From: Dyella sp. C11
GTDB lineage: Bacteria; Pseudomonadota; Gammaproteobacteria; Xanthomonadales; Rhodanobacteraceae
DNA length: 64,000 nt
NCBI RefSeq assembly: GCF_003121485.1
Contig: NZ_QAVX01000009.1
Location: 62,001-126,000, forward strand
Reading direction: 5' to 3'
A program made the translations under genes and the position numbers. This document shows, piece by piece, positions 46,303 through 60,045 of the stretch. Numbering within the stretch: position 1 is the stretch's first letter; every line of letters begins with the position of its first letter. The notes below the pieces were generated by a model, which saw only the letters and a program-made list of their open reading frames with translations, had not been told where the DNA came from and searched no databases.

Positions 46303-47564
<1,262 letters not shown>

Positions 47565-47568
<4 letters not shown>

Positions 47569-48740
47569 GCGTCGATGTCCCCTGTGGTTTCGATGTCGAC
47601 CAGCGTGGCGAGATCGTCTCGGTGCACGATCTCCGCGCCGTAGCTGTAGCCCAGCAGGGGCTCGATGTCGCGACTGTGTCGCCCGGCCATGCGCTTCACT
47701 TCAACCGCACCGTACTGGCTAAGCCCACGCGCCACGACGCGGGCCGCCTCGTCCACGATCTCCACGAGATCGCCGCGATGGAATTCCCCGGTTACGTCGA
47801 GCACACCACCGGGCAGCAGCGAAGCGCGACCACCTGCCAACGCCCGCGCTGCACCGGCATCCACTTGGATGCGCCCCGGCGCGGCAGGCGCATGGCGCAA
47901 CCAATATTTGCGTGCCTGCATGCGCGTCTTGCCCGCCACGAAGAACGTGCCCCGCAACTGCCCCTGCGCCAGCGCGTCGACCGTTTCCGAACGCCTGCCA
48001 CTGAAGATCGCGGTGGGAACGCCTGCAGCACCGGCCTTGGCGGCGGCTTCCAGCTTCGTGCGCATGCCACCGGTGCCGACGGTGCTGCCGCTGCCACCGG
48101 CCATCGCCATCACTTCCGGCGTCAATGCCTCAATACGCTGCAAAGGCGTTGCCAGGGGATCGCGCCGTGGATCGGCGGTGTAAAGCGCATCGATATCCGA
48201 GGCGATCAGCAACAGGTCCGCGTCCACCAGCGCAGCCACGATCGCGGCGAGGTTGTCGTTGTCGCCGAGCTTGAGTTCGTCCACGGCCACCGTGTCGTTC
48301 TCGTTCACCACCGGCAGCACATCCAGCGTCAGCAGCTCTCTCAAGGTGGCGCGTGCATTGAGGTAACGGCGGCGATTGCGCAGGTCGTCGTGCGTCAGCA
48401 GCACCTGGGCGACCGGCCGTGAACTCAGCGACTGCCATAACGCGATCATCGGCGCTTGCCCCAACGCGGCCAATGCCTGCCTCGCAGCAATATCGCCGCC
48501 GCTTGGCGTGTGCGCGCGCAGTTGGGCACGCCCTGCGGCCACGGCACCCGACGACACCAGCACGACCTGGCGACCGGCGTCACGACTGGCACGGATGAAG
48601 TCCGCCAAGGCCGCGGCATAGATTGATGTGAGGCCACCGCCGTCGGCCGCAAGCAGGTTGCTGCCCACCTTCAGCACGCAACGACGCCATGTGGGCAGCG
48701 CCTGCATGGGAATAACCTGCGAGCGCTGCCCTTCGTTCAT
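47565..48740 (-). CDS. proB: Glutamate 5-kinase
   Basis: A 391-residue kinase, first step of proline synthesis. The amino acid kinase domain (about 15-270) starts [20 protein letters not shown], then [60 protein letters not shown] and [20 protein letters not shown]. The C-terminal PUA domain (about 295-380) holds [20 protein letters not shown]. Proline feedback inhibition is usual for this type. Its ATG at 48740 overlaps the cupin gene stop by 4 bp, and its end overlaps proA by 4 bp. Confidence 0.95.
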
Positions 48741-49111
48741 GCGTGATCGCCCAAGGGCGTTTCGATACGATCCCCGTGGCTGCGGGGCGAGGAAACGACC
48801 AGCATCCGCACGTCGGCGTGGCTGTCGTTACGGACTTGATGGGGGCGCCCGGGTGGCACATGGAGACCCTGCCTGGGCGACAATCGGTGTGACGCGCCGT
48901 CCAGCTCGATGGTCAGCTCCCCCTGAAGCACATAGAAGAACTGGCGGGAGCGCTCATGGCGGTGACGAACCTCCCACGCGCCCTGGGGCATGCGTTCTTC
49001 GATCACACTGAGGTCCGCGCCGGCCAGCAGATGCCAGCCGTCGCAGTCTTGTCCCCAGTGGTAGTGTTCGGCATTTTCCGTGCTGACGGTTCCCATGCCG
49101 ATCTCCAACAT
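48737..49111 (-). CDS. Cupin-domain protein between argH and proB
   Basis: A 124-residue single-domain cupin. WEVRHRHERSRQFFYVLQGE plus LTIELDGASHRLSPRQGLHV is the first motif with RHRH and E ligands; PPGRPHQVRNDSHADVRMLV is the second with its His. It begins MLEIGMGTVSTENAEHYHWG. The fold is a small sensing or isomerase-type cupin; function unknown. It is 11 nt after argH and overlaps proB by 4 bp, so it is transcribed with arginine and proline biosynthesis genes. Whether it senses an intermediate of that pathway is open. Confidence 0.82.
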   Translation of the reverse strand: MLEIGMGTVSTENAEHYHWGQDCDGWHLLAGADLSVIEERMPQGAWEVRHRHERSRQFFYVLQGELTIELDGASHRLSPRQGLHVPPGRPHQVRNDSHADVRMLVVSSPRSHGDRIETPLGDHA

Positions 49112-49122
49112 GCCTATTCCTT

Positions 49123-50418
49123 TTAGCCGTCCAGACGGCTGAGTCTATCGCGCAATGCGTCCAGGCGCAGGTCGTTTCCGGAACCGGGCGAGACGCGTGC
49201 TGCGAGGCTGGCCTCGGGCGTGCGTCCCTCGCCGGCCGAGGCGGCCGCATCCGCTGCCGCACGATACGCATCGCGGAAGGGTACGCCCGCCGCTGCCTGC
49301 TCGATCGCCACGTCGGTGGCATACATGGCCGGCTCGATGGCGGCGCGCATGGCCGGCTCGTTCCATTCCATGCGGGCCAGCAGGTCCGGCACCAGTTCCA
49401 GCGCGGCCAGGCCATGACGGCAACCGTGGAACAGGGAACCTTTGGAGAACTGCAGGTCACGCTGATAGCCCGACGGCAGCGACAGCAGCTGCTCGATCTC
49501 GGTACGGGCGGCGGCGACACTGGCGTAGCTGGCGCGCAGCAGCTCCACCACGTCCGGATTGCGCTTGTTCGGCATGATCGAGCTGCCTGTGGTGTATTCG
49601 CTCGGCAGCTTCACGAAGTTGAATTCGGCCGTGGTGAACAGCGAGAGGTCCCACGCCAGGCGACGCAGGTCCAGCAGCGCCGCGGCAATGGCTTCCAGCA
49701 CGGCCATTTCGAACTTGCCACGCGAGAGCTGTGCGTAGATGGGCGACACCTGCATGCGGGCAAAACCCAGCGCCTGCGTGGTGTGCTCGCGGTCCAGCTT
49801 GAGGTTCACGCCATAGCCCGCCGCCGTACCCAGCGGGTTGGCATCGATCAGCAGCGCGGTCTGCTGCGCACGCAGCGCGTTGTCGATGAAACCCTCGGCA
49901 AAGCCCGCAAACCACATGCCGGTGGACGACACCACCGCACGCTGCAGATGCGTATAGCCCGGCAACGGGATGGCCGGCTGCGCGGCGCGATCCAGGCAAA
50001 CCTTGGCAATGGCCTTGCAGGTGCCTTCGAGCGTGGCCAGCTGCTCCTTCAGCCACAGGCGCGTGGCGACCAGGATCTGGTCATTGCGGCTGCGACCGGT
50101 GTGCACGCGGCGGCCGGCATCACCCAGGCGCTCGGTAAGACGCGCCTCGATGGCCGAGTGGCCATCTTCATAACGGTCGTCGAGCACGAAGTTGCCGGCG
50201 CGGAAGTCCTCCGCCAGCACGTCGAGCTCGCGCTTCAACGCCGCGGCTTCATCCCCGCTCACCACACCGATGTTGGCTAGCCCTTCCACATGCGCCTTGC
50301 TGGCCGTGATGTCGTGCAGGAAGAACTCGCGATCCAGCACCACGTCGTCGCCCGCGAGGAACGTCATGATGCGGGTGTCGATCTTGATGTTGGATTTTTG
50401 CCAGAGAGGTTGGGTCAT
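49123..50418 (-). CDS. argH: Argininosuccinate lyase
   Basis: A 431-residue lyase of the fumarase/aspartase superfamily. Start at 50418 ([20 protein letters not shown]) with AGGACACCACG upstream; a longer frame would run into the inverted-repeat element. It splits argininosuccinate to arginine and fumarate. [40 protein letters not shown] and the superfamily signature [20 protein letters not shown] are present, with the catalytic Ser in GSSIMP. The N-terminus is of the shorter type found in xanthomonads. Last enzyme of the arginine route here; followed by a cupin gene. Confidence 0.93.
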
Positions 50419-50460
50419 CGTGGTGTCCTGCAATCTTGGTAAGGCGCCATCTTTCTGCTC

Positions 50461-50582
50461 GTCATTCCGGCGCAGGCCGGAATCCAGCAGAGACACGGCC
50501 TGGTTGTCGCAAAAAGCTGATCTGCTGCTACCGCAGGGACCCTTCGCCATCGCATCTGGATTCCGGCCTGCGCCGGAATGAC
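50461..50582. repeat. Inverted-repeat element between argC and argH
   Basis: GTCATTCCGGCGCAGGCCGG plus AATCCAG (50461-50487) and its exact complement (50556-50582), 27-bp arms with a 68-nt loop. It lies between the argC stop at 50585 and argH at 50418 in the operon. Confidence 0.88.
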
Positions 50583-50584
50583 GG

Positions 50585-51541
50585 TCAGGTGATCGGGATC
50601 GCCGTGTACTCGTCAACGCCAATGGCGCGATTGATGTTCTGCATGGCCTGCGTCGCCGCGCCCTTCAGGAGGTTGTCGAGCGTGGCCACCACCACGACAC
50701 GCTTGCCGTCGTTGGACACGGCAAAACCGCCGATATCCACGTGGTGCTTGTTGGCGATGTGGCTGACCCACGGCGCCTCATCCACCACATGCACCAGCTT
50801 TTCGCCTTCGTACGCACCGTTGAAGCGCTGCACGATGTCCTCACGCTTCACCTGGCGTGCCAGATACAGGTTCGTGGTGACCGTGAGCCCGCGGAAATGC
50901 GGCGCCACGTGCGGCATGAACTCCACCGGCACATTCAAATGCCGGCTCGCTTCCTTCTCGTGCATGTGACCGGTGAGCGAGTACGGCATCAGGTTGTCGC
51001 GCAGCTTCTCCGGGTTGTTCTTGTCCGACGGCGTGGTGCCGGCACCGGAGTAGCCGGATACGCCAAAGCTCACCGGCGGTGCCGCCAGCAGATCCTTCAG
51101 CGGTGCGATGGACAGCTGGATGGCAGTCGCGTAGCAACCCGGATTGCTGATGCGCTTCTCGCCGCGCCACAGCTGGCGCGTGAGTTCCGGCAGACCGTAG
51201 TACCACTTCTCGTTGAAACGATAATCGGCGGAAAGGTCGACGATGATCGTCTCAGGCCTGGCCTTGTCGATGGCTTCGACATACGGCGCAGCCTTCCCAT
51301 TGGGGAGCGCCAGCACGACGATATCCGCGCCCTGCGCTGCCACGTCATCGGCGTCGAGGCTGGCGTAACGCAGCTCGCCTTCGAAACCCTCGACGTTATC
51401 CGCCACGCGCTGGCCATCCAGCTCACGCGAGGAAACAAACGCCAATTCCAGCGCCGGATGTGCGGCCACCAGCCGGATCAGTTCGGCACCCGTGTGCCCG
51501 CGTGCGCCGACGATGCCGATGCGATGCTTGTTCGTGCTCAT
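50585..51541 (-). CDS. argC: N-Acetyl-gamma-glutamyl-phosphate reductase
   Basis: A 318-residue enzyme that reduces N-acetylglutamyl phosphate to N-acetylglutamate semialdehyde. [20 protein letters not shown] is the Rossmann nucleotide loop. The active-site Cys is in [28 protein letters not shown] and [20 protein letters not shown] match the family, with a His important for catalysis in the latter. Starts 3 nt after the fused argB/A gene, so the two are tightly coupled. Confidence 0.93.
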
Positions 51542-51544
51542 GGA

Positions 51545-52861
51545 TCAGTCCACCAGGGTCGGCAGGCGCTGCGCACAATGCGCGACGCAACGGGCGATCG
51601 TGTCGAAGTCTTCAATGCCGTACCAGAACACTTTCCAGCTCGGCTGCTTGAGGCAGCCATCGGATTCGGCATAGTAGAAATGGTTCACCGTGTTGCCGTG
51701 GCGCGAGCGCCAGAACAGTTGCGGATTTTCCTCGCGCATCACCTGCCACACGGCGCGGCCCAGGCCTTCACCCTGCGCGTCGTCGAGCACGGCGAACTTG
51801 TCGAGATACGGCAAGCCGCCTTCCATGGTCAGGATCATCGCGGTGCGGTAGTTCTCGCTTACGTACACGCGAAACGGCTTGGTGCGCTCGAAATAATCCG
51901 GCACCAGCGTACGACCGAAGCTGGACTCGATCAGCTCGCGCATGCGACCCAGGTCGATGCCCTCCCACGACTCGAAACGCTTCACCTTCTCGCCACGACG
52001 CACCAGCGTGCCCGAACCCTTGTGCGTGAACAGTTCCTTCGCCAGCTCCGACGGCTTGGTGATGGATACCGACGAGGTCAGCGGCAGATCGTTCAGCAGG
52101 TCCGCGATCTGTTCGATCTTCAGGCGCATGCCGCCGTTGATCCACGGCTGGGCCATCAGGTGCTCGAACTCGGTGCTGAGATTGATCGAGTCGATGATGT
52201 TGCCCTTGTCGTCCAGCAGGCCGCCCGTGCCGGTGAGGAACACGATCTTGTACGGTTGCAGCACGCGCACCAGTTCGTTGGCGGCGAAATCGGCATTGAC
52301 GTTGAGGATCTGCCCCTCTTCCGTCTCGCCGAGGCTGGCGATCACGGGAATGGAACCCGCACGCAAGCTGGCTTCGATCGGCGCGAGGTTGATGCTGGTG
52401 ACCTTGCCCACCAGGCCATAGGTGTCGCGGTCCAGATAACTGGCCGTGAATACGCCCGACGGCACCGAAGTGGCACGCGTATCCATCGTCTGCAGCGCCT
52501 CGACCAGACGCAGGTTCTGCTCCTGGAACACCTTGCGCACGATGGCCAGCGCCTTGGGCGTGGTCACGCGCAGGCCGTTCACCGTGTGCTTCTCGATGCC
52601 GGCGGCGGAAAGTTCTTCGTCCAGCTGCGGGCCCGCGCCGTGCAGCACGATGGGTGTCAGGCCCACCTGCTGCAGGAAGGTGAGCGACGAGGTGAGTGCC
52701 GGCAGGTCGTCGCGCAGCACGGCGCCACCGACCTTCACCACGGCGAAGCGCTTGGCGTCCAGCTGCGAGAAGCGCTTGAGGTATTGCTGGATCTCCTTCG
52801 CGCTACCCATGCTCGAAAGCAGGCGGACGATGGTTTTCCGGGTGTGCTTGTGGGCTTCCAC
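51545..52861 (-). CDS. argB: Bifunctional N-acetylglutamate kinase / N-acetylglutamate synthase
   Basis: A 438-residue fusion. Residues about 35-285 are the amino acid kinase domain: [60 protein letters not shown] and [20 protein letters not shown]. Residues about 290-438 form a GNAT synthase domain: [20 protein letters not shown] style strands and [20 protein letters not shown] for acetyl-CoA, ending [17 protein letters not shown]. Such NAGS-K fusions are known from Xanthomonas and Xylella and resemble the animal NAGS architecture. It makes and phosphorylates N-acetylglutamate. Arginine inhibition of the synthase is likely from family knowledge. Confidence 0.94.
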
Positions 52862-52867
52862 TGTTGC

Positions 52868-53962
52868 TTAACTCTTGTCGATGATGCGGTAGATGGTGTC
52901 GGCGTAATGCTGCAATTGGTCGAGTGAAACCCACTCGTCGGCGGTATGCGCCTGCGCGATGTCGCCGGGGCCGTAGACGAAGCTGGTGTAGCCGGCAGCG
53001 GAGAACAGCGCCGCCTCGGTCCAGAAGTCCACGGCGTTGCCGATGGGAATGTTCAACTCGTCGGCGAGGTCACGCGCTGCGAGGCGACGCGTTTCCGCCG
53101 TGGCTGTGTCGCCAGCAGGCAGCGAATCGCCGTGGAAGAGTTCGTCGAACTCTACCGGCTGCGGTTCGACCAGCGTGCGGAACGTGTTGAGCAGGTCTTT
53201 CGGGTTCATCGTCGGCAACGGACGGAAACCGAAACGGACATCCGCCGACGGCGCGATCATGTTTGCCTTGATGCCACCATCGATGCGACCGATGTTGAAG
53301 CGCAGGCCGGTAAGGCCTCCGAAGCGCTCATGCGCCTGCTTCTCCACGTAGTCGAGCGCCGCAGCACCCCAACGCACCACCTGATGCACGGCGCTGTCGC
53401 TGGGCTTCTGCTCGCCCGACGCGTGACCGGCACTGCCCTTGAAGCGCATCTGCACCGAATGGATGCCGCGATGCGCCAGCACCGCTTCACCCTTGGTCGG
53501 CTCGGCCACGATGATGGCGTCGTACGCCGGCTTGTCCTTGAGGAAACCGGCGATGCAGCGCGGGTCGTTGGCTTCTTCGTCGGTCGACAGCAACAGCGCC
53601 ATGTCGCCCTTGGTGACGTTCGCCACGGCGACAAGCGCAGCGGCTGCGCCCTTGATGTCGCATGCGCCCAGGCCAATCGCGCGATCCTCCGTCACGCGCA
53701 GCTCGTGCGGACTGGCCGTCCAGTGCGGTGAATCGGGCACGGTATCCAGGTGCACGTTGAACAGCACTTTCGGTTGGCCACGCACGGCGTACAGCGTCAC
53801 GGCGCCTGCGCCGTAGTCGGTCGCGGTGACGTCGAAGCCCGGCAGGTTGTCCCGCAGGTAGTCGAAGATGCCGCCGGTGCCGATCTCGCGCGGCGGATTG
53901 CGCGTGTCGTAGCTGACCAGCGCGCGAAGGTGTCGGAGAGTGTCGTCGAGTAGAGAGCTCAT
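52868..53962 (-). CDS. argE: M20 deacetylase of the arginine route (acetylcitrulline/acetylornithine type)
   Basis: A 364-residue M20 metallopeptidase. VLFNVHLDTVPDSPHWTASP has the first zinc His/Asp pair, IGLGACDIKGAAAALVAVAN gives the bridging Asp and LLLSTDEEANDPRCIAGFL the catalytic Glu-Glu. IIVAEPTKGEAVLAHRGIHS and FKGSAGHASGEQKPSDSAVH hold later ligands and the dimerisation region. Since the transcarbamylase is of the acetylornithine type, the physiological substrate should be N-acetylcitrulline, as in Xanthomonas; this is inferred from context. It lies 6 nt before the argB/A fusion. Confidence 0.9.
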   Translation of the reverse strand: MSSLLDDTLRHLRALVSYDTRNPPREIGTGGIFDYLRDNLPGFDVTATDYGAGAVTLYAVRGQPKVLFNVHLDTVPDSPHWTASPHELRVTEDRAIGLGACDIKGAAAALVAVANVTKGDMALLLSTDEEANDPRCIAGFLKDKPAYDAIIVAEPTKGEAVLAHRGIHSVQMRFKGSAGHASGEQKPSDSAVHQVVRWGAAALDYVEKQAHERFGGLTGLRFNIGRIDGGIKANMIAPSADVRFGFRPLPTMNPKDLLNTFRTLVEPQPVEFDELFHGDSLPAGDTATAETRRLAARDLADELNIPIGNAVDFWTEAALFSAAGYTSFVYGPGDIAQAHTADEWVSLDQLQHYADTIYRIIDKS

Positions 53963-54003
53963 GCGATCCGGATAGTGAAGGGTTGCTTCGGGATTCCCTT
54001 AGC

Positions 54004-54049
54004 CGTCATCCCCGCGAACCCCGAAAAGGGGGCAAGGGCGGGAATGACG
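54004..54049. repeat. Short inverted-repeat element between argG and argE
   Basis: CGTCATCCCCGC (from 54004) and GCGGGAATGACG (to 54049) are imperfect inverted ends of the same family as 13031, 50461 and 55330. A shortened member with a small loop. Confidence 0.75.
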
Positions 54050-54060
54050 AGCAAAAAGAA

Positions 54061-55251
54061 TCAGCGGTTGATCTCAGCCCACAGCGTGCTGCTCATGCCG
54101 AACAGCTTGATGAAACCTTCCGCCTCTTCCACGCCCCAGTCGGCCGACTGCGCGTAGGTGGCGCCCTTGGCGTTGAGGATGTGCGGCGAACGCACTTCCA
54201 CCGCTGTCACCTGCGCGCCGGAGGTTTCCAGAACCACTTCACCGTTGACCGTGCCCTGGCTGGACGTGAGGAACGCTTCCAGGTCGGTCTTGATCGGATC
54301 GTGGAAGAAGCCTTCGTACACCACTTCCACCCACTTGCGCGCCACTTCCGGCTTGAAGCGGTTCTGCTGCTTGGTCAGCACCGCTTCTTCCAGCGCGCGG
54401 TGCGCCGTGAGCAGCGAAATCAGGCCCGGCGCTTCATACACGATGCGACCCTTCAGGCCGATGGTGGTGTCGCCGGTATACATGCCGCGGCCCACGCCGT
54501 ACGGCGCAAACAGCTCGTTGAGCTTGGCCAGCAGCTTGGCGCCCGGCAGCTTTTCACCGTTGAGCGACACCGCCTCACCCTTCTCGAAGCCAAGGGTGAC
54601 GGTGAGCTTTTCGGACGGCCATTCGGCGCGCGGCTTGCACCAGCCGCGGGCGCCTTCACCCGGCGTCTTCCAATGGTCGATTTCGCCGCCCGAGAGCGTC
54701 ACGCCCAGCAGGTTTTCGTTGATGGTGTAGCTCTTCTGCTTGGCGCGCACGTCGAAGCCGCGTTCTTCCAGGTACGCCTGCTCGTAGGCGCGCGTCTGGG
54801 TGTGTTCCTTCTGGATCTCGCGAATCGGCGCCACGATCTGGTAGTCGCCCAGCGCCTTCACGGCCAGGTCGAAACGCACCTGGTCGTTGCCCATGCCGGT
54901 GCAGCCATGTGCGATGGCCTTGGTGCCCAGTTCCTTGGCGCGCGCAATGGCAGCGTCCACGATCAGGTAACGGTCGGACACCAGCAGCGGGTACTGGCCC
55001 TGGTAGGCCTCGCCGGCCTGCACGAAGGGCTTCACGAAACCGTTCCAGATGGCCGGGCCGCCATCGACGGTGACATGGCTTGCCACGCCCAGTTCCTTGG
55101 CGCGGGCCTCGATGTAGGCGCGTTCCTCGGCGTCCACGCCGCCGGTATCGGCGAACACGGTATGGACGGCCCAGCCGCGCTCCTTGAGGTAAGGCACGCA
55201 GAAGCTGGTGTCGAGACCACCGGAGAAGGCGAGAACGATGTCTTTGCTCAT
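54061..55251 (-). CDS. argG: Argininosuccinate synthase
   Basis: A 396-residue synthase. [20 protein letters not shown] has the PP-loop SGGLDTS for [43 protein letters not shown] and [20 protein letters not shown] match the family, with [17 protein letters not shown] and [20 protein letters not shown] in the C-terminal half. It condenses citrulline with aspartate. Deacetylated citrulline would come from the argE product. It is separated from the osmC-like gene by 183 nt containing an inverted repeat, so a separate promoter there is possible. Confidence 0.93.
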
Positions 55252-55329
55252 GACTTGTGGATCCTGGAAATGGAAGGCTAAACGGAAATACGTATATCAG
55301 GTGGATAGCTGGAAGCTAAAGCTTTTGAT

Positions 55330-55414
55330 CGTCATCCCAGCGAAAGCTGGGATCCAGTGACTTTGACCTTCACGGACGGAAAGACGCTGGATTCCTGCTT
55401 TCGCAGGAATGACG
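55330..55414. repeat. Inverted-repeat element between osmC-like gene and argG
   Basis: CGTCATCCCAGCGAAAGCTG plus GGATCCAG (55330-55357) and CTGGATTCCTGCTTTCGCAG plus GAATGACG (55387-55414) are inverted arms with a few mismatches across a 29-nt loop. Confidence 0.85.
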
Positions 55415-55434
55415 AGGTAGGAGAGGTCTCGTGC

Positions 55435-55911
55435 TCACGACCCCACCACGATGCGTGGCACAACGCGCACCGGAAAGTTCACGGAATTGGCAATGAAGCA
55501 GCCGTGGTGCGCGGGATCGTGCGCCGCCTCGGCCTTGGCTGGGTCGCTGTCGGCGGTGATGGTGACCACCGGATGCAACACCACTTCGATGAAGTGGCCG
55601 CCATGGACGTCCGTTTCCATGCTGCCCTCGGCGCTGTCGGTGTACGCAGTGACCACCACGCCAGCCAACACGGCCTGGTGCAGATACGACAGCATGTGGC
55701 AGGTGGAGAGCGCCGTCACCAGCATGTCTTCGGGGTTGTACTTGCCCTTGTCGCCCCGGAACGTGGGATCGGACGAACCTTGCAGCGCAGGCTTGCCGTC
55801 GATGCGGATCTCGTGATCGCGGCCGTAACCCTGGTACGTCTTGGTGCCCGTGCCCTGGTTGCCGGTCCAGACCACGTCGACTTTGTAGTGATGCTGATGC
55901 GTATGGCTCAC
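55435..55911 (-). CDS. OsmC/Ohr-family peroxide reductase-like protein
   Basis: A 158-residue OsmC-fold protein. The two redox cysteines are in LVTALSTCHMLSYLHQAVLA and AHHGCFIANSVNFPVRVVPR. It begins with a short His-rich segment, HTHQHHYKVDVVWTGNQG. The subtype (OsmC, Ohr or YhfA-like) cannot be settled by eye, but the GKYNPEDMLVTALSTCHMLS region fits the OsmC-like group acting on organic peroxides. It overlaps the paiB-type gene by 4 bp and is part of the arginine operon's second half. Confidence 0.85.
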   Translation of the reverse strand: MSHTHQHHYKVDVVWTGNQGTGTKTYQGYGRDHEIRIDGKPALQGSSDPTFRGDKGKYNPEDMLVTALSTCHMLSYLHQAVLAGVVVTAYTDSAEGSMETDVHGGHFIEVVLHPVVTITADSDPAKAEAAHDPAHHGCFIANSVNFPVRVVPRIVVGS

Positions 55912-56528
55912 GACTTGCCCTCTTGTTGCGACATGAGTTCCGCCAGCACCGCGTCGTCATGGCGACCGCGCTGATGCAGTCCTTCCACAACGCCCGCGCG
56001 GTTACCTGCCGGGTGGTTCTGGTTCAACTTGAACTTGCCTTCGATGCGGTCGATGGAAATTTCCAGGCCGCTGATGGCGCGGAGCATCTTTTCAATGTGG
56101 TCTTCCGGCGCATCGGAGACATGCCACGGCGCGGGCTGATCCGCCTCGTGACGGTCGGTCAGACGCTCCAGCAGCGCGCGCAGCCAGGCCGCATCTTCCG
56201 TGACACGCAGGCGACCATGCACGTGCACCACCGCGTAATTCCACGTGGGCACTTCGCGATGGGTTTCCTGCTTGGTCGGATACCAGTTGGGACTGATATA
56301 GCCATCCGGACCGCGGAAGATCACCAGCACCTCGGCACCGTCCATGCACGACAGTTCATTGCCGCGCGCGACATGGCCGTGCAGCGTGCCATCAACCAGC
56401 TCCACGGGAAGATGGTTCGCCGCCAGCCCGTCCGCGCCCTGCACCACCACGGTGGCGAACGGGTACGCGCGCATGAACGCGTGCAGCGCGTCGCTGTCCG
56501 TCACCTTGAAGTGCGCAGGCTGGTACAT
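55908..56528 (-). CDS. PaiB-family FMN-binding protein
   Basis: A 206-residue protein of the PaiB/FMN-binding split-barrel family. MYQPAHFKVTDSDALHAFMR is the start; DGLAANHLPVELVDGTLHGH, HVARGNELSCMDGAEVLVIF, PDGYISPNWYPTKQETHREV and PTWNYAVVHVHGRLRVTEDA are family-typical, and IEGKFKLNQNHPAGNRAGVV is the C-terminal signature. B. subtilis PaiB was described as a negative regulator of sporulation and degradative enzyme genes, but its homologues are flavin-binding proteins of uncertain role. It overlaps argF' by 1 bp and osmC by 4 bp, so it is transcribed with them. Confidence 0.88.
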   Translation of the reverse strand: MYQPAHFKVTDSDALHAFMRAYPFATVVVQGADGLAANHLPVELVDGTLHGHVARGNELSCMDGAEVLVIFRGPDGYISPNWYPTKQETHREVPTWNYAVVHVHGRLRVTEDAAWLRALLERLTDRHEADQPAPWHVSDAPEDHIEKMLRAISGLEISIDRIEGKFKLNQNHPAGNRAGVVEGLHQRGRHDDAVLAELMSQQEGKS

Positions 56529-57535
56529 CAGCGCTGACCGATCAGCGAGGCCATCACGGCCTTCTGCACGTGCAGGCGGTTTTCGGCTTCATCGATGGCG
56601 ATGCAGGCCGGCGAATCCATCACGGCGTCCGTGGCCTTGACGTTGCGGCGCAGCGGCAGGCAGTGACTGAAGAGGCCGTTGTTGGTCAGCGCCATCTTCT
56701 GCTCGTCCACAATGAAATGCTTGTGCGCATCGCGGATCGGCTTTTCCTGGTCCCAGCGACCGAAGAACGGCAGCGCGCCCCAGCTCTTGGCGTACACCAC
56801 GTCGGCGCCCGTGTAGGCCTCTTCGATGTTGTGGCTCACCTTGAGCGAGCCGCCGTTTTCCTTGGCGTTCTGGTAGCCAAATTCCATATAGCGCTCATCG
56901 AGCACGTAGTCGGGCGTGGGACACAACAGCGTCACGTCCATGCCCATCTTGGTGGCGATGAGCAGCGCGGAGTTGGCCACGGCCGTGTTGAGCGGCTTAG
57001 GGTGGTACGTCCAGGTCAGCACGTACTTCTTGTTCTGCAGGTTGCCCAGGTGTTCCTTCAGCGCCATCGCGTGCGCCAGTTCCTGGCACGGGTGCGTGAT
57101 GGTCTCCATGTTGATCACCGGTACCGTGGCGTACTTGGCGAACGCCTTGATGACGTTGTCCTCGCGGTCCACTTTCCAGTCCTGGAACTTCGGAAAGGCG
57201 CGCACGGCGATCAGGTCCACATAGCGCGACAGCACGCGTGCCACTTCGGCGATGTGCTCTTCCGTATCGCCGTCCATCACCGTACCGACGTCGAACTCGA
57301 TCGGCCATGCGTCCTTGCCCGGCGCCAGCACAATGGCATGGCCGCCCATGTGGAACGCGCCCAGTTCGAAGCTGGTGCGCGTACGCATGGACGGATTGAA
57401 GAACATCAACGCCACCGACTTGCCAGCCAGCTGCTGGCCGCGCGGGGAACGCTTGAAGGCGGCGGCCTCCTCGAGCAGCGCATCGATCTCGGCGCGGCTG
57501 TAATCCTGGGTGGTCAGAAAGTGGCGAAGCGTCAT
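56528..57535 (-). CDS. argF': N-Acetylornithine carbamoyltransferase
   Basis: A 335-residue transcarbamylase of the acetylornithine type. The carbamoyl phosphate loop is FFNPSMRTRTSFELGAFHMG with S49-M-R-T-R53. Trp77 in PGKDAWPIEF and Glu92 in MDGDTEEHIAEVARV are at the positions that define acetylornithine specificity in Xanthomonas campestris AOTCase; Pro near there would indicate succinylornithine. ETITHPCQELAHAMALKEHL, VLTWTYHPKPLNTAVANSAL and FSHCLPLRRNVKATDAVMDS follow. It makes N-acetylcitrulline. It is the first structural gene of the operon, downstream of a hairpin at 57578. Confidence 0.95.
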   Translation of the reverse strand: MTLRHFLTTQDYSRAEIDALLEEAAAFKRSPRGQQLAGKSVALMFFNPSMRTRTSFELGAFHMGGHAIVLAPGKDAWPIEFDVGTVMDGDTEEHIAEVARVLSRYVDLIAVRAFPKFQDWKVDREDNVIKAFAKYATVPVINMETITHPCQELAHAMALKEHLGNLQNKKYVLTWTYHPKPLNTAVANSALLIATKMGMDVTLLCPTPDYVLDERYMEFGYQNAKENGGSLKVSHNIEEAYTGADVVYAKSWGALPFFGRWDQEKPIRDAHKHFIVDEQKMALTNNGLFSHCLPLRRNVKATDAVMDSPACIAIDEAENRLHVQKAVMASLIGQR

Positions 57536-57574
57536 GTTGGTGGTTGCCCTTGTCGAATTTCTGGATTCGGAAAC

Positions 57575-57645
57575 AAAAAAACCCGGCTGCTAGCCGGGTT
57601 TTTGTCGTCTATGCACGTTAAACGCGTGCGACAGCCTACCCGGCC
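57575..57645 (-). promoter_or_regulatory. Candidate attenuator upstream of argF'
   Basis: On the minus strand AAAACCCGGCT (57602-57592) and AGCCGGGTTTT (57588-57578) form an 11-bp terminator stem with a 3-nt loop, then T to 57575. It lies 40 nt before the argF' ATG. Upstream, GGCCGGGT (57645-57638) can pair with ACCCGGCT, the 5' arm of the terminator, forming an exclusive antiterminator. The antiterminator strand overlaps the stop codon of the possible leader ORF 57636-57770. Confidence 0.6.
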
Positions 57646-57770
57646 AATTGGCGGAGCAGCGGTCGGCGAGCACGCGACGTCATCCCAGCGGCCATGCGGG
57701 CGCTAGTGAGGACAGTGGCGGTATAGACGGCTGCGGACATGAAAGTCTCGGGAGGTTGAACTTTCATCAT
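57636..57770 (-). CDS. Possible arginine-rich leader peptide
   Basis: A 44-codon ORF from ATG 57770 to TAG 57638-57636. Its last third reads MTSRARRPLLRQLAG, with four Arg codons among the final 12 before the stop, and it ends inside the antiterminator strand. The order leader, Arg codons, overlapping antiterminator and terminator matches amino acid attenuation. Against it: no clear ribosome binding site precedes any Met (57770, 57740, 57695, 57683), and part of the ORF resembles the GGGATGACG end of the repeat family. Confidence 0.35.
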   Translation of the reverse strand: MMKVQPPETFMSAAVYTATVLTSARMAAGMTSRARRPLLRQLAG

Positions 57771-57829
57771 GACGGGATTTTCGCTGCCATGCAACAAGAA
57801 ACGATCCAAAAGCGGTCCCTGGACACGAA

Positions 57830-57851
57830 ATCGCCGCCCGAGGGCGGCGAT
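57830..57851 (-). terminator. Probable terminator of the glycine-zipper gene
   Basis: ATCGCCGCCC (57830-57839) and GGGCGGCGAT (57842-57851) form a strong stem; on the minus strand it is followed by TTTCG. It lies 12-33 nt beyond the end of the 57863 gene and separates it from the argF' leader region. Confidence 0.6.
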
Positions 57852-57862
57852 CGTGGCGAATC

Positions 57863-58405
57863 TCAGTCGGCGGGAGAAACGCTCACCCGCACACGAAGGC
57901 GCTCGCCGGGGTCGTAGTTGAGGCGGGACAGGTAGACCTCGCCACGGTAACGGTATTCCACGTCGTAACCCATGATGCGGCGCTGCTCGCTCACGGCGGC
58001 CACCTGGCGGCAGTGCGTCTCCGTGCTCTGGTATTCGCCCCCGCCAGACTGGGTGGCCGCGTTGCCTACCGCGCCGCCAGCCACCGCGCCAGCCACAGTG
58101 GCCGCCGTGCGGCCATTGCCACGGCCGACCGTGCTACCCAGCACACCACCCACGACGGCACCCAGGATGGTGCCCGCCGCCGAACCCTGGCTGGGCGCCT
58201 GAGTCACCACCTGCTGGTCATAGCATTCCTGACGCGGCACTTCGGTACGGGCCACGCCATACACGGGATCGACGCGCAGCACATCCGCCCAGCCGTAATG
58301 GGTGTTGTCGTCGTTCTGCGTTTGATTCGGATACCGCGCATCCTGCGCCAATGCGCCGGTGGTCACCAAGGACAACACCAGCGCGGGGAACAACCACTTG
58401 GTCAT
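57863..58405 (-). CDS. Glycine-zipper 2TM envelope protein
   Basis: A 180-residue exported protein. The ATG at 58405 has GGAGG upstream; a 7-residue longer reading is rejected. Signal peptide LFPALVLSLVTTGALA-QD. The mature part has a Cys in RQECYDQQVVTQAP, then a glycine zipper AAGTILGAVVGGVLGSTVGR and TAATVAGAVAGGAVGNAATQ (about residues 86-125), and a beta-rich end with HCRQVAAVSEQRRIMGYDVE and YRYRGEVYLSRLNYDPGERL. This is the rickettsial 17-kDa surface antigen/Glycine_zipper_2TM group, outer-membrane or periplasmic. Function undefined. Divergent from cysS. Confidence 0.85.
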   Translation of the reverse strand: MTKWLFPALVLSLVTTGALAQDARYPNQTQNDDNTHYGWADVLRVDPVYGVARTEVPRQECYDQQVVTQAPSQGSAAGTILGAVVGGVLGSTVGRGNGRTAATVAGAVAGGAVGNAATQSGGGEYQSTETHCRQVAAVSEQRRIMGYDVEYRYRGEVYLSRLNYDPGERLRVRVSVSPAD

Positions 58406-58656
58406 TACGACCTCCGCTAGGACCAACCTCGAGGCGCAGCTCTACACCCCGTACCATCCATTGCAGCAAATTCACTCTGAATCGACGCTTAGAAGTTTCC
58501 CTAAAGTCTTGCGAACGGTGGCCGTTGTTCATCCATTGGGTACCGTTCTGGCCGACAACGCGCCAGCCCGCTGCGGGTCGCCCGGTGGCTTGTTAAGATG
58601 CGCGACCGGCTTGCGCCCGCCTGGCGCCTGCACCCACCGCCCGGACCACCCGACCG

Positions 58657-60045
58657 ATGCCGATTTCGCTCCACAACAGCCTGACGCGCCGCGTAGAACC
58701 GTTCTCCCCACTCGACCCGAACCGGGTCACGATGTATCTGTGCGGGCCGACCGTCTACAACTACGTGCATATCGGCAACGCGCGCGGACCCGTGGTATTC
58801 GATGTGCTGGCCAAGCTGCTGCGCCGCCACTACGCCAACGTGGTGTACGCCCGCAACATCACCGACGTGGACGACAAGATCAACACCGCCGCCCAGCAGC
58901 TGGGGGTGGGTATTGAAAGCATTACCACGCGCTATACCCAGGCCTACCGCGAAGACATGGCCAGGCTGGGCATTGCCCCGCCGGACGTGGAACCGCACGC
59001 CACCGCGCACATCCCGCAGATCATCACGATGATCGAGCGCCTTATTGAAAGTGGCCACGCCTACGCCGCCGAAGGCCATGTGCTGTTCAATGTGGATTCG
59101 TACCCCGCGTACGGCGAGCTCTCCGGTCGCGATCCGGAAGAAATGCTGGCCGGCGCCCGCGTGGAAGTGGCCCCGTACAAGAAGAACCCCGGCGACTTCG
59201 TGCTGTGGAAGCCCTCCACGCCCGAACTTCCCGGCTGGGACAGTCCCTGGGGTCGCGGTCGCCCAGGCTGGCATATCGAATGCTCGGCGATGAGCGAAGC
59301 CCACCTGGGTGACACCATCGACATCCATGCCGGCGGCGTCGACCTGCAGTTCCCGCACCACGAGAACGAAATCGCCCAGTCCACCTGCGCGCACGGTGGC
59401 AAGGTGTTTGCGCGCGTCTGGCTGCACAACGGCATGCTGACCTTCAGTGGCCGCAAGATGTCCAAGTCGCTGGGCAATGTGATGCTGGTGCACGAACTGC
59501 TTCAGCAGCACCCGCCGGAAGCTTTGCGCCTGCTCCTGCTGCGTGGTCACTACCGCCAGCCGCTGGACTGGTCCGACGCCGCCATCGCGCAATCGATCAG
59601 CACGCTGGACGGCTGGTATCGCGTGCTGCGCGACCTTGCCGACGTCGAGGTCGACACCACGAACCTGCCGATTCCCGCCTCCGTGGAAGCGGCACTGTGC
59701 GACGACCTCAACACCCCGCAGGCGCTCGCCGAGCTTTCGCAGCTAGCCGATGGGGCACGCCAGGCCGGTACGGCCGAGGAAAAGCGCGAGGCGAAGGCCG
59801 CGCTACTTGGAGCCGGCGCCCTGCTCGGCCTGCTGCAACAGGATGCCGAAGCCTGGTTCAAGCCGGCGGGCGGCGACCACGAGGTCGATGCGGCCCGCGT
59901 CGAAGCCTTGCTGGAGGAACGCCGCAGCGCGCGCGCCGCGAAAGACTTCAAGCGCGCCGATGCGATCCGCGAGGAACTGACCGCGATGGGCGTGGCCATT
60001 GAAGACGGCGCTCAGGGCACACGCTGGAGCGTGATCAAGGGCTGA
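58657..60045 (+). CDS. cysS: Cysteinyl-tRNA synthetase
   Basis: A 462-residue class I synthetase of usual length. [20 protein letters not shown] has the zinc Cys and the HIGH-type [24 protein letters not shown] follows. [20 protein letters not shown] and [20 protein letters not shown] carry further zinc ligands (Cys, His, Glu) and the strong substrate-selective pocket. [20 protein letters not shown] contains KMSKS. The C-terminal helical anticodon region has [20 protein letters not shown]. Single gene with a REP doublet following. Confidence 0.95.

Follow-up and report, generated by a model that had tools for sequence, protein, structure and literature searches.

A probable ribosome-mediated arginine attenuator with a conserved leader peptide upstream of argF' in Dyella and related Lysobacterales

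The window, as the whole 64,000-nucleotide stretch of Dyella sp. C11 DNA analysed is called here, carries on its minus strand argF', encoding N-acetylornithine carbamoyltransferase (56528..57535; NCBIfam NF003384, 612.4 bits against a cut-off of 288). On the same strand a downstream cluster (46303..56528) contains genes for an FMN_bind_2 protein (55908-56528) and an OsmC-like protein (55435-55911), argG (54061-55251), genes for an ArgE-type deacetylase (52868-53962) and an acetylglutamate kinase of the Xanthomonas NAGS-K kind (51545-52861), argC (50585-51541), argH (about 49123-50508), proB (47565-48740) and proA (46303-47568), the last being named by eye from the sequence. The FMN_bind_2 and OsmC-like genes (55435-56528) sit between argF' and argG, and a role for them in arginine synthesis is not obvious. 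An arginine operon of X. campestris has been described in a paper whose main text, as far as it was covered here, does not contain the word ArgR (PMC1865377). A repeat scan of 53900-55500 returned one 21-nt direct pair, and a plasmid search gave no match.

The region 5' of argF' carries, also on the minus strand, a compact series of elements. A putative -35 element, TTGCAT (57789..57794), and a putative -10 element, CATGAT (57766..57771), were read from the sequence with a 17-nt spacer between them; the pattern TTGCNN-17-CATSAT is found 5' of the leader motif described below in 74 of 169 loci, and a stricter generic promoter scan of 56000-60000 reported no promoter. The leader ORF, MSAAVYTATVLTSARMAAGMTSRARRPLLRQLAG followed by its stop, has 34 codons and begins with the ATG at 57740 (57636..57740). 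It contains a fixed peptide core, A-R-M-A-A-G-M-T-S-R-A-R-R (57663..57701), delimited from codon and parsimony tables of 169 loci, with the core Arg codons CGT (57674-57672), CGC (57668-57666) and CGA (57665-57663). The 3' end of the leader reads TCG CGT GCT CGC CGA CCG CTG CTC CGC CAA TTG GCC GGG TAG (57636) and lies 32 nt from the terminator. The candidate antiterminator 5' arm, GGCCGGGT (57638..57645), has as its last base the first base of the stop codon, and the intrinsic terminator, AAAAACCCGGC-TAGCA-GCCGGGTTTTTTT (57575..57603), has a 5' arm, ACCCGGC (57599-57593), which can also pair with the antiterminator arm. Within the antiterminator loop the family version contains a hairpin, TGTCGCACG...CGTG...CGACA (57603..57633), which is partly present in the RNAalifold consensus of the family alignment A1 and belongs to a region of variable length and sequence in the order-wide alignment.

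Much of this arrangement had been outlined in the original prediction, which was made from the window alone. The ORF does end in SRARRPLLRQLAG before its stop, with four Arg among the last 12 residues; the stop stands at GGCCGGG followed by TAG; the terminator lies at 57603-57575, with a gap of 39 nt to argF'; and the proposed pairing with its 5' arm is available in the window, as TTGGCCGGGT against ACCCGGCTAG, 10 bp including G-U. The ORF had been given 44 codons; the conserved start is the ATG at 57740, and the start at 57770 falls in the predicted -10 element. The suspicion that part of the ORF is the end of a repeat can be dropped, the covariance model matching once in the whole genome. 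A riboswitch or T-box was rejected, since every Rfam match in 57400-58000 (13 up to E 1) falls short of the gathering score of its family.

The distribution of the element follows that of argF'. A covariance model, R1, built from 30 loci of the family to which the window belongs, finds the element in 144 of 147 genomes of that family; all 143 family genomes with argF' carry it, at E 7.6e-12 or better, and among the four whose best argF' match is at paralogue level three are without the element and one has a weak match (G132, E 1.7e-4). In the order, 194 of 299 genomes match R1 at E up to 0.001, with strong matches in four families, f1-f4; among genomes with argF', the model matches 78/78 in f2, 3/3 in f3 and 7/9 in f4 (G149 weakly), the two f4 genomes outside the R1 matches being G195, which starts at a contig end, and G213. 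Matches outside f1-f4 are near noise, except for G262 (f8), and R1 is unspecific at weak scores, as this genome matches at 1.3e-7 and its leader (L346) is of the Arg-run type, lacking the motif. Scanning a collection of 84,980 species with a degenerate DNA pattern for the motif gave at least 119 loci; among the matches listed, argF' follows on the same strand 120-444 nt downstream in 114 of 119, and in the other five the sequence ends 56-266 nt past the motif. Genera among the matches listed include Xanthomonas, Stenotrophomonas, Lysobacter and Dyella, and we take them to belong to Lysobacterales, except for proteobacterial MAGs, [Pseudomonas] boreopolis (L290) and L331. The last, JAIBEO010000217.1, is from a MAG titled Rhizobium sp. 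and has both the motif and a downstream argF', which may reflect a mis-binned contig or a transfer.

At the level of the peptide, the motif [GS]-MTSRARR was present in 170 of 170 loci fetched from f1-f4 with argF', and R-A-R-R in 170/170 with substitutions of the coding type. Thirty of these loci were picked by argF' alone (30/30 with the motif) and 140 through R1 matches; the peptide rows were collected with the pattern [GS]MTSRARR, which all 170 passed. Six of seven further f3/f4 loci also carry [GS]-MTSRARR, the exception, L351, being a contig start. The tables of 169 loci used below omit L333-L338, L153 and L351; the structural comparisons cover 175 loci, that is the 169 together with the six loci L333-L338, and L153, whose leader lies outside the 480-nt window taken for a locus (the motif was found there), and L351 stand outside the 175. 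L002, L032 and L033 are not argF' loci and were dropped from the counts.

A terminator precedes argF' in 175 of 175 loci. By a simple scan, a terminator alone is not rare (2 in 56000-60000 against 2.5 expected in shuffles). The pairing upstream of it exceeds chance: a match of at least 7 nt to the terminator 5' arm is present in 88% of the 175 loci against 9.6% with shuffled upstream sequence, and a match of at least 5 nt in 174/175, 146 of which end at the first base of the stop codon. The three arms covary, GCCGGG/CCCGGC/GCCGGG occurring in 104/175 loci and GCTGGG/CCCAGC/GCTGGG in 34/175. In the main variable column (antiterminator, terminator 5' arm, 3' arm) the combinations are C-G-C in 132, T-A-T in 35 and the wobble T-G-C in 5 of the 175, and the same antiterminator/terminator column is incompatible in 3/175 (C-A-T 2, G-G-C 1). 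By parsimony on the argF' protein tree, three events change all three arms to a pairing state. All six antiterminator positions are paired in 154/175 loci and 21/175 fail.

Alignment A2, a hand-picked set of 66 of 172 distinct segments, gives a similar picture with its own exceptions. Paired cells amount to 91.3% for the antiterminator (88.6% in shuffled alignments, at most 52.1% in slid controls) and 100% for the terminator (94.8% and at most 50.0%), and cells with two-sided change number 24 and 33 respectively, where shuffles give 9.5 and 9.0. Two measures stay at the shuffled level, namely antiterminator pairs showing two-sided change (2 against 1.8, with 366 of 500 shuffles reaching 2) and terminator pair types (5 against 4.9, with 440 of 500 reaching 5); pair 20-76 is broken in 6/66 segments and the outermost pair in 34/66. 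RNAalifold on the family alignment A1 found it too conserved, with two-sided change in 1/44 pairs. The covariation check suggested with the original prediction came out in favour of both pairings, and the comparison supports a mutually exclusive antiterminator, with one strongly covarying column and the exceptions given above. The antiterminator ends 45-51 nt past the motif in 174/175 loci, and the stop ranges over 27-51 nt; this constant spacing beside a variable stop indicates that the position of the antiterminator is set by that of the Arg codons. Certain relatives have a stop as much as 18 nt short of the antiterminator end (L211), and a ribosome there would leave the antiterminator not fully covered. 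Extra hairpins or repeated inserts are seen between the terminator and argF' in L012, L013, L014, L020, L140 and L148, and the distance from leader stop to argF' spans 72 to 387 nt over the 169 loci.

By the toeprint convention, the leading edge of a ribosome lies 13 nt from the A site. Modelled in this way, a ribosome with its A site at R4, R6 or R7 exposes the RNA from offset 25, 31 or 34 onward, the antiterminator arm being at 41-48, and a ribosome at the stop covers the RNA to offset 61, the arm included. When folding was computed before the 3' arm of the terminator is made, the probability of the nascent antiterminator exceeded 0.5 in 172/175 loci with the A site at the last Arg (R7) and in 1/175 at the stop, and the terminator formed in silico in 175/175 with the ribosome at the stop. 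At equilibrium with the ribosome stalled, the energy of the antiterminator falls below that of the terminator in just 27/175; the antiterminator is the more probable structure in 103/175 when the U tract is left out, and in the window itself the terminator wins by both measures. Since the terminator is usually favoured at equilibrium, the switch would have to be kinetic. With no ribosome the median probability of the nascent antiterminator is 0.92, and that of the terminator at equilibrium 0.99 (169 loci). In these models ribosome position decides which structure forms in a kinetic sense, not at equilibrium.

The element is best read as a ribosome-mediated transcription attenuator for arginine biosynthesis, a reading well supported by comparison, to which we give a probability of roughly 0.9. 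RNA polymerase would start near 57758 and a ribosome would translate the 34-codon leader. Under a shortage of charged Arg-tRNA, the ribosome would stall with one of the three S-R-A-R-R Arg codons in its A site, so that its leading edge would be 7 to 16 nt short of GGCCGGGT; the free GGCCGGGT could then pair with the terminator 5' arm, and transcription would read through into argF' and the arginine genes. With ample arginine, a ribosome at the stop would cover GGCCGGGT, the terminator would form and a short RNA would be released. The reading is grounded in comparison of the parts, their conservation, covariation and spacing, the selection on the peptide and the lack of an ArgR over the cut-off (both described below), and from these we infer stalling on low arginine and read-through. 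Relatives keep the Arg-rich ORF, the stop with its antiterminator, the terminator and argF' together, where the original prediction would have been damaged by relatives that keep the terminator without the ORF or the antiterminator; its proposal of a logic like that of his, trp and leu attenuation, applied to arginine, is likewise favoured by conservation, covariation and the footprint arithmetic. It did not extend to how widely families share the element, to the Arg-run leaders found in sister families, to the identity with Xoo5 or to the constraint on residues other than Arg.

The his, trp and leu attenuators of enteric bacteria have a leader ORF with codons for the end product, mutually exclusive antiterminator and terminator structures, and pathway genes on the 3' side. 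The element has in common with them the leader codons, the exclusive structures and the downstream pathway genes, and Rfam Leu_leader (22 bits) and Thr_leader (20.3 bits) match weakly in the window, below threshold. It differs in concerning arginine, in having only three conserved regulatory codons, which lie within a strictly conserved peptide, and in an antiterminator arm that overlaps the stop codon, with no pause or 1:2 hairpin established. The SpeFL/ORF34 leader of enteric speF, as presented in parts of PMC6386406, is similar in that its peptide (DUF2618) is conserved and that consecutive Arg codons serve to sense arginine; it differs in peptide sequence and in controlling ornithine decarboxylase through Rho, mRNA structure and RNase G. 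The attenuator-like uORFC motifs and the carA motif resemble the element as uORFs with conserved tandem codons, one of them Arg-Leu-Arg, and as the leader of beta-proteobacterial carA; they concern other genes and taxa, and in the portions of PMC8632094 considered the stem xanthomon does not occur and arginine appears only in the carA passage and a reference. In the open-licence literature on Xoo5, arginine attenuators, Xanthomonas argF leaders, arrest leaders and peTrpL, neither the element nor an arginine attenuator in the order Lysobacterales was found described; in the text covered, PMC2965389 mentions Xanthomonas once, for rpsL, and has no word in argin-, and PMC5343134 treats ArgR regulons with no occurrence of the word Xanthomonadales.

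The sister families were sampled through 59 genomes from f3-f11, hand-picked among those with argF'. MTSRARR occurs in 0/52 argF' loci of f5-f11, of which 46 have a terminator; the six without a recognisable leader terminator before argF' (L342, L352, L358, L378, L383, L388) are from f6 and f10. An antiterminator match of at least 6 nt is present in 36 of these 46 (25.9% in shuffles), and at least four Arg within six codons in 29/52 loci, or 29/46 of those with a terminator (3.7% in shuffles), examples being leaders with RTNPRRRRVSQSTAG, DIRRLRRPRTGNRAG and AALRRRRRSSQRRAG, each before its stop. The search for Arg was limited to 20-60 nt before the antiterminator end, with ties resolved toward 40 nt, so that the spacing is partly built in. 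On the opposite strand a run of at least four Arg is as frequent (31/46), and, as CGN repeats read Arg both ways, the run alone is no proof of the frame, which is supported by a stop beside the antiterminator in several sister loci. Four f9 loci (L357, L359, L379, L380) have the arms CCTGG/CCAGG with a matching antiterminator. In five other f9 loci (L361, L382, L386, L387, L390) the antiterminator finder seemingly settled on a poor site, so the uncorrected count of Arg runs may be too low; the leader of L361 reads VVVRRRRPLRQ. The simplest reading of the comparison would be an ancestral Arg-run attenuator in which the run was replaced by a fixed peptide in f1-f4.

Control of the cluster by ArgR was considered and rejected, ArgR being under the cut-off in the genome of the window itself (0/1) and in all 147 family genomes (0/147, with 2 weak matches below the cut-off), in a search whose controls passed the cut-off in 8 of 14 cases. 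In the order, ArgR exceeds the cut-off in 8 of 299 genomes, all of f12 (G157, G166, G174, G181, G187, G193, G205, G211), and none of these eight has a strong argF' match, which suggests that arginine pathway and regulator go together.

The leader peptide of f1-f4 has the consensus A-x-x-A-[AST]-G-M-T-S-R-A-R-R, in which A(-5), A(-2), M, T, S, R, A, R and R are invariant in 169/169 loci and G is present in 168. Over nine codons (A-2 and G to R7), parsimony on the argF' protein tree counts 198 changes at third positions against 1 at first or second positions, with frequent change at residues -9 to -6 and +9 to +13. Three or four synonymous codons are in use at each of A(-2), A(-1), G, T and A(5); as residues, A(-2), T and A(5) are unchanged and G changed once. 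The last core Arg codon is CGA in 167/169 loci, a rare codon, used for 7 of the 266 Arg codons of eleven genes nearby, and the Ser codon is TCG in 165/169; the motif-to-stop distance is 16 codons in 149/169. Of the four Arg codons on which the original prediction relied, the three of SRARR are conserved and the fourth is not, the position being Arg in only 50/167 loci; this fourth Arg was also rejected as a sensor, as stalling at it would place the ribosome over most of the antiterminator arm. The peptide of the window has no NCBIfam family at E 1e-5, and two leader peptides compared with Pfam gave no family, bar one match at E 0.29. In 57 of the 169 loci (peptides with VYTA), codons 1-15 (57740-57696 in the window) encode an N-terminal half that resembles MS[AST]AVYTA[TN]VLTSAR. 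In the 30-locus alignment (L001-L031), GCCGTCTATACCGC is nearly fixed even in nucleotides, which the stall model and the terminator leave unexplained.

The invariance of the peptide and the fixed CGA imply that the peptide and one codon are both under selection. Residues fixed beyond the regulatory codons are a mark of arrest peptides of the TnaC, SpeFL and SecM kind, and, as his/trp logic does not explain an amino-acid constraint beyond the Arg codons, the nascent chain probably takes part in control. In f1-f4 the leader would seem to have evolved from a plain Arg run into a fixed peptide ending in the rare CGA, and the chain in the exit tunnel would most likely slow or gate decoding at the core Arg codons. 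It can therefore be proposed that the nascent peptide, and not the codons alone, is the sensor, an ancestral Arg-run leader that stood in for the missing ArgR having become, in a Lysobacterales clade, an arrest peptide tuned to arginine or Arg-tRNA with a hard-to-read CGA at the stall site; we regard this as having about an even chance of being right, the part of the chain and the direction of evolution being what we infer from the comparison. If true, a single operon would have passed in evolution from counting codons to sensing the nascent chain. The leaders at the same gene, from Arg runs to a fixed peptide, form a natural series in which the two modes of sensing could be compared directly. 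The attenuator reading also supplies the likely arginine control for a large part of a bacterial order that has ArgR in only 8/299 sampled genomes.

Alternatively, the leader might be an arrest peptide of the TnaC or SpeFL type whose ligand is arginine or an intermediate of the pathway: at high arginine the ribosome would arrest close to the stop, G-M-T-S-R-A-R-R lying 9-16 residues from the peptidyl transferase centre, the antiterminator would be covered and termination would follow, all of which is compatible with the attenuator reading. Non-Arg residues fixed at the amino-acid level and the 16-codon distance in 149/169 loci, which puts the motif in the upper part of the exit tunnel when the ribosome is at the stop, agree with ligand sensing; it nevertheless seems unlikely, because a minority of leaders with stops at 9-13 codons keep the motif, so that a fixed stop distance is not required, and because the 52 sister-family loci manage without it. 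Somewhat less likely still is plain Arg-codon attenuation in which RNA structure or codon effects, and not the peptide, hold the other residues fixed. The near fixation of CGA (167/169) and TCG (165/169) as codons and the alternative pairings predicted inside the ORF in the family of the window speak for such effects, but three or four synonyms at A(-2), A(-1), G, T and A(5), with A(-2), T and A(5) invariant as residues, argue for selection on the peptide.

The element also has a counterpart among known RNAs, being homologous, by covariance model, to Rfam RF02242 ("Xoo5"); it is not a formal member, the window giving a full-length match on the minus strand (57622..57742) of 35.9 bits, below the gathering threshold of 50. 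Sixteen other loci were scanned, and the threshold is reached in 11 (L193, L197, L199, L208, L209, L170, L231, L251, L265, L222, L233) and missed in L001, L211, L217, L264 and L256. It is passed on the leader before argF' in six of eight order loci (L170 in part only) and in five of eight named loci, those of X. vasicola, X. floridensis, X. hortorum, Xanthomonas sp. NCPPB 1128 and S. maltophilia. According to passages of PMC3039613, Xoo5 is a Northern-verified Xanthomonas sRNA with no assigned function; Table 2 there gives PXO_00353 as the gene downstream, and Table 4 names PXO_00353 as N-acetylornithine carbamoyltransferase and PXO_00352 as argininosuccinate synthase. The two are alike in locus, directly before argF' in Xanthomonas and Stenotrophomonas, and differ in that Xoo5 was described as an sRNA and that the RF02242 model ends before the terminator. 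The likeness gives an Rfam sRNA family a suggested function. Projected on L193 through the Rfam model, the RACE-mapped 5' end of Xoo5 given in that paper (PMC3039613) lies 2 nt before the leader ATG, and such a near-leaderless message would explain the missing ribosome binding site there.

Several details in the same passages (PMC3039613) speak against a simple identity of Xoo5 with the terminated leader: bands of about 130 and 100 nt and a 124-nt clone were obtained, the terminated leader would be expected at roughly 160 nt, longer than the bands, and the clone ends in the antiterminator loop; moreover, for seven sRNA deletions including Xoo5, flanking-gene expression and growth were reported unchanged. 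The short RNAs on those Northern blots, with the precedent of the tryptophan leader peptide peTrpL of Sinorhizobium meliloti (PMC7298713, as far as covered) and an amino-acid constraint stronger than codon counting needs, could suggest that the peptide or the short RNA also acts in trans, which would account for the fixed peptide. We consider this doubtful, as the Xoo5 deletion had no phenotype in the assays reported in those passages (PMC3039613), and the constraint stops at the Arg core and leaves residues 9-13 free, as would be expected more of action at the decoding site than of a free peptide. That Xoo5 is an independent small RNA gene with its own terminator, placed before argF' by chance, agrees with the Rfam entry type 'Gene; sRNA' and is very improbable given an ORF under amino-acid selection, a covarying antiterminator and the linkage to argF'. 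Beside thiC, a TPP riboswitch is the ordinary expectation. Another RNA in the passages that describe Xoo5, sRNA-Xoo1, adjoins thiC (PMC3039613).
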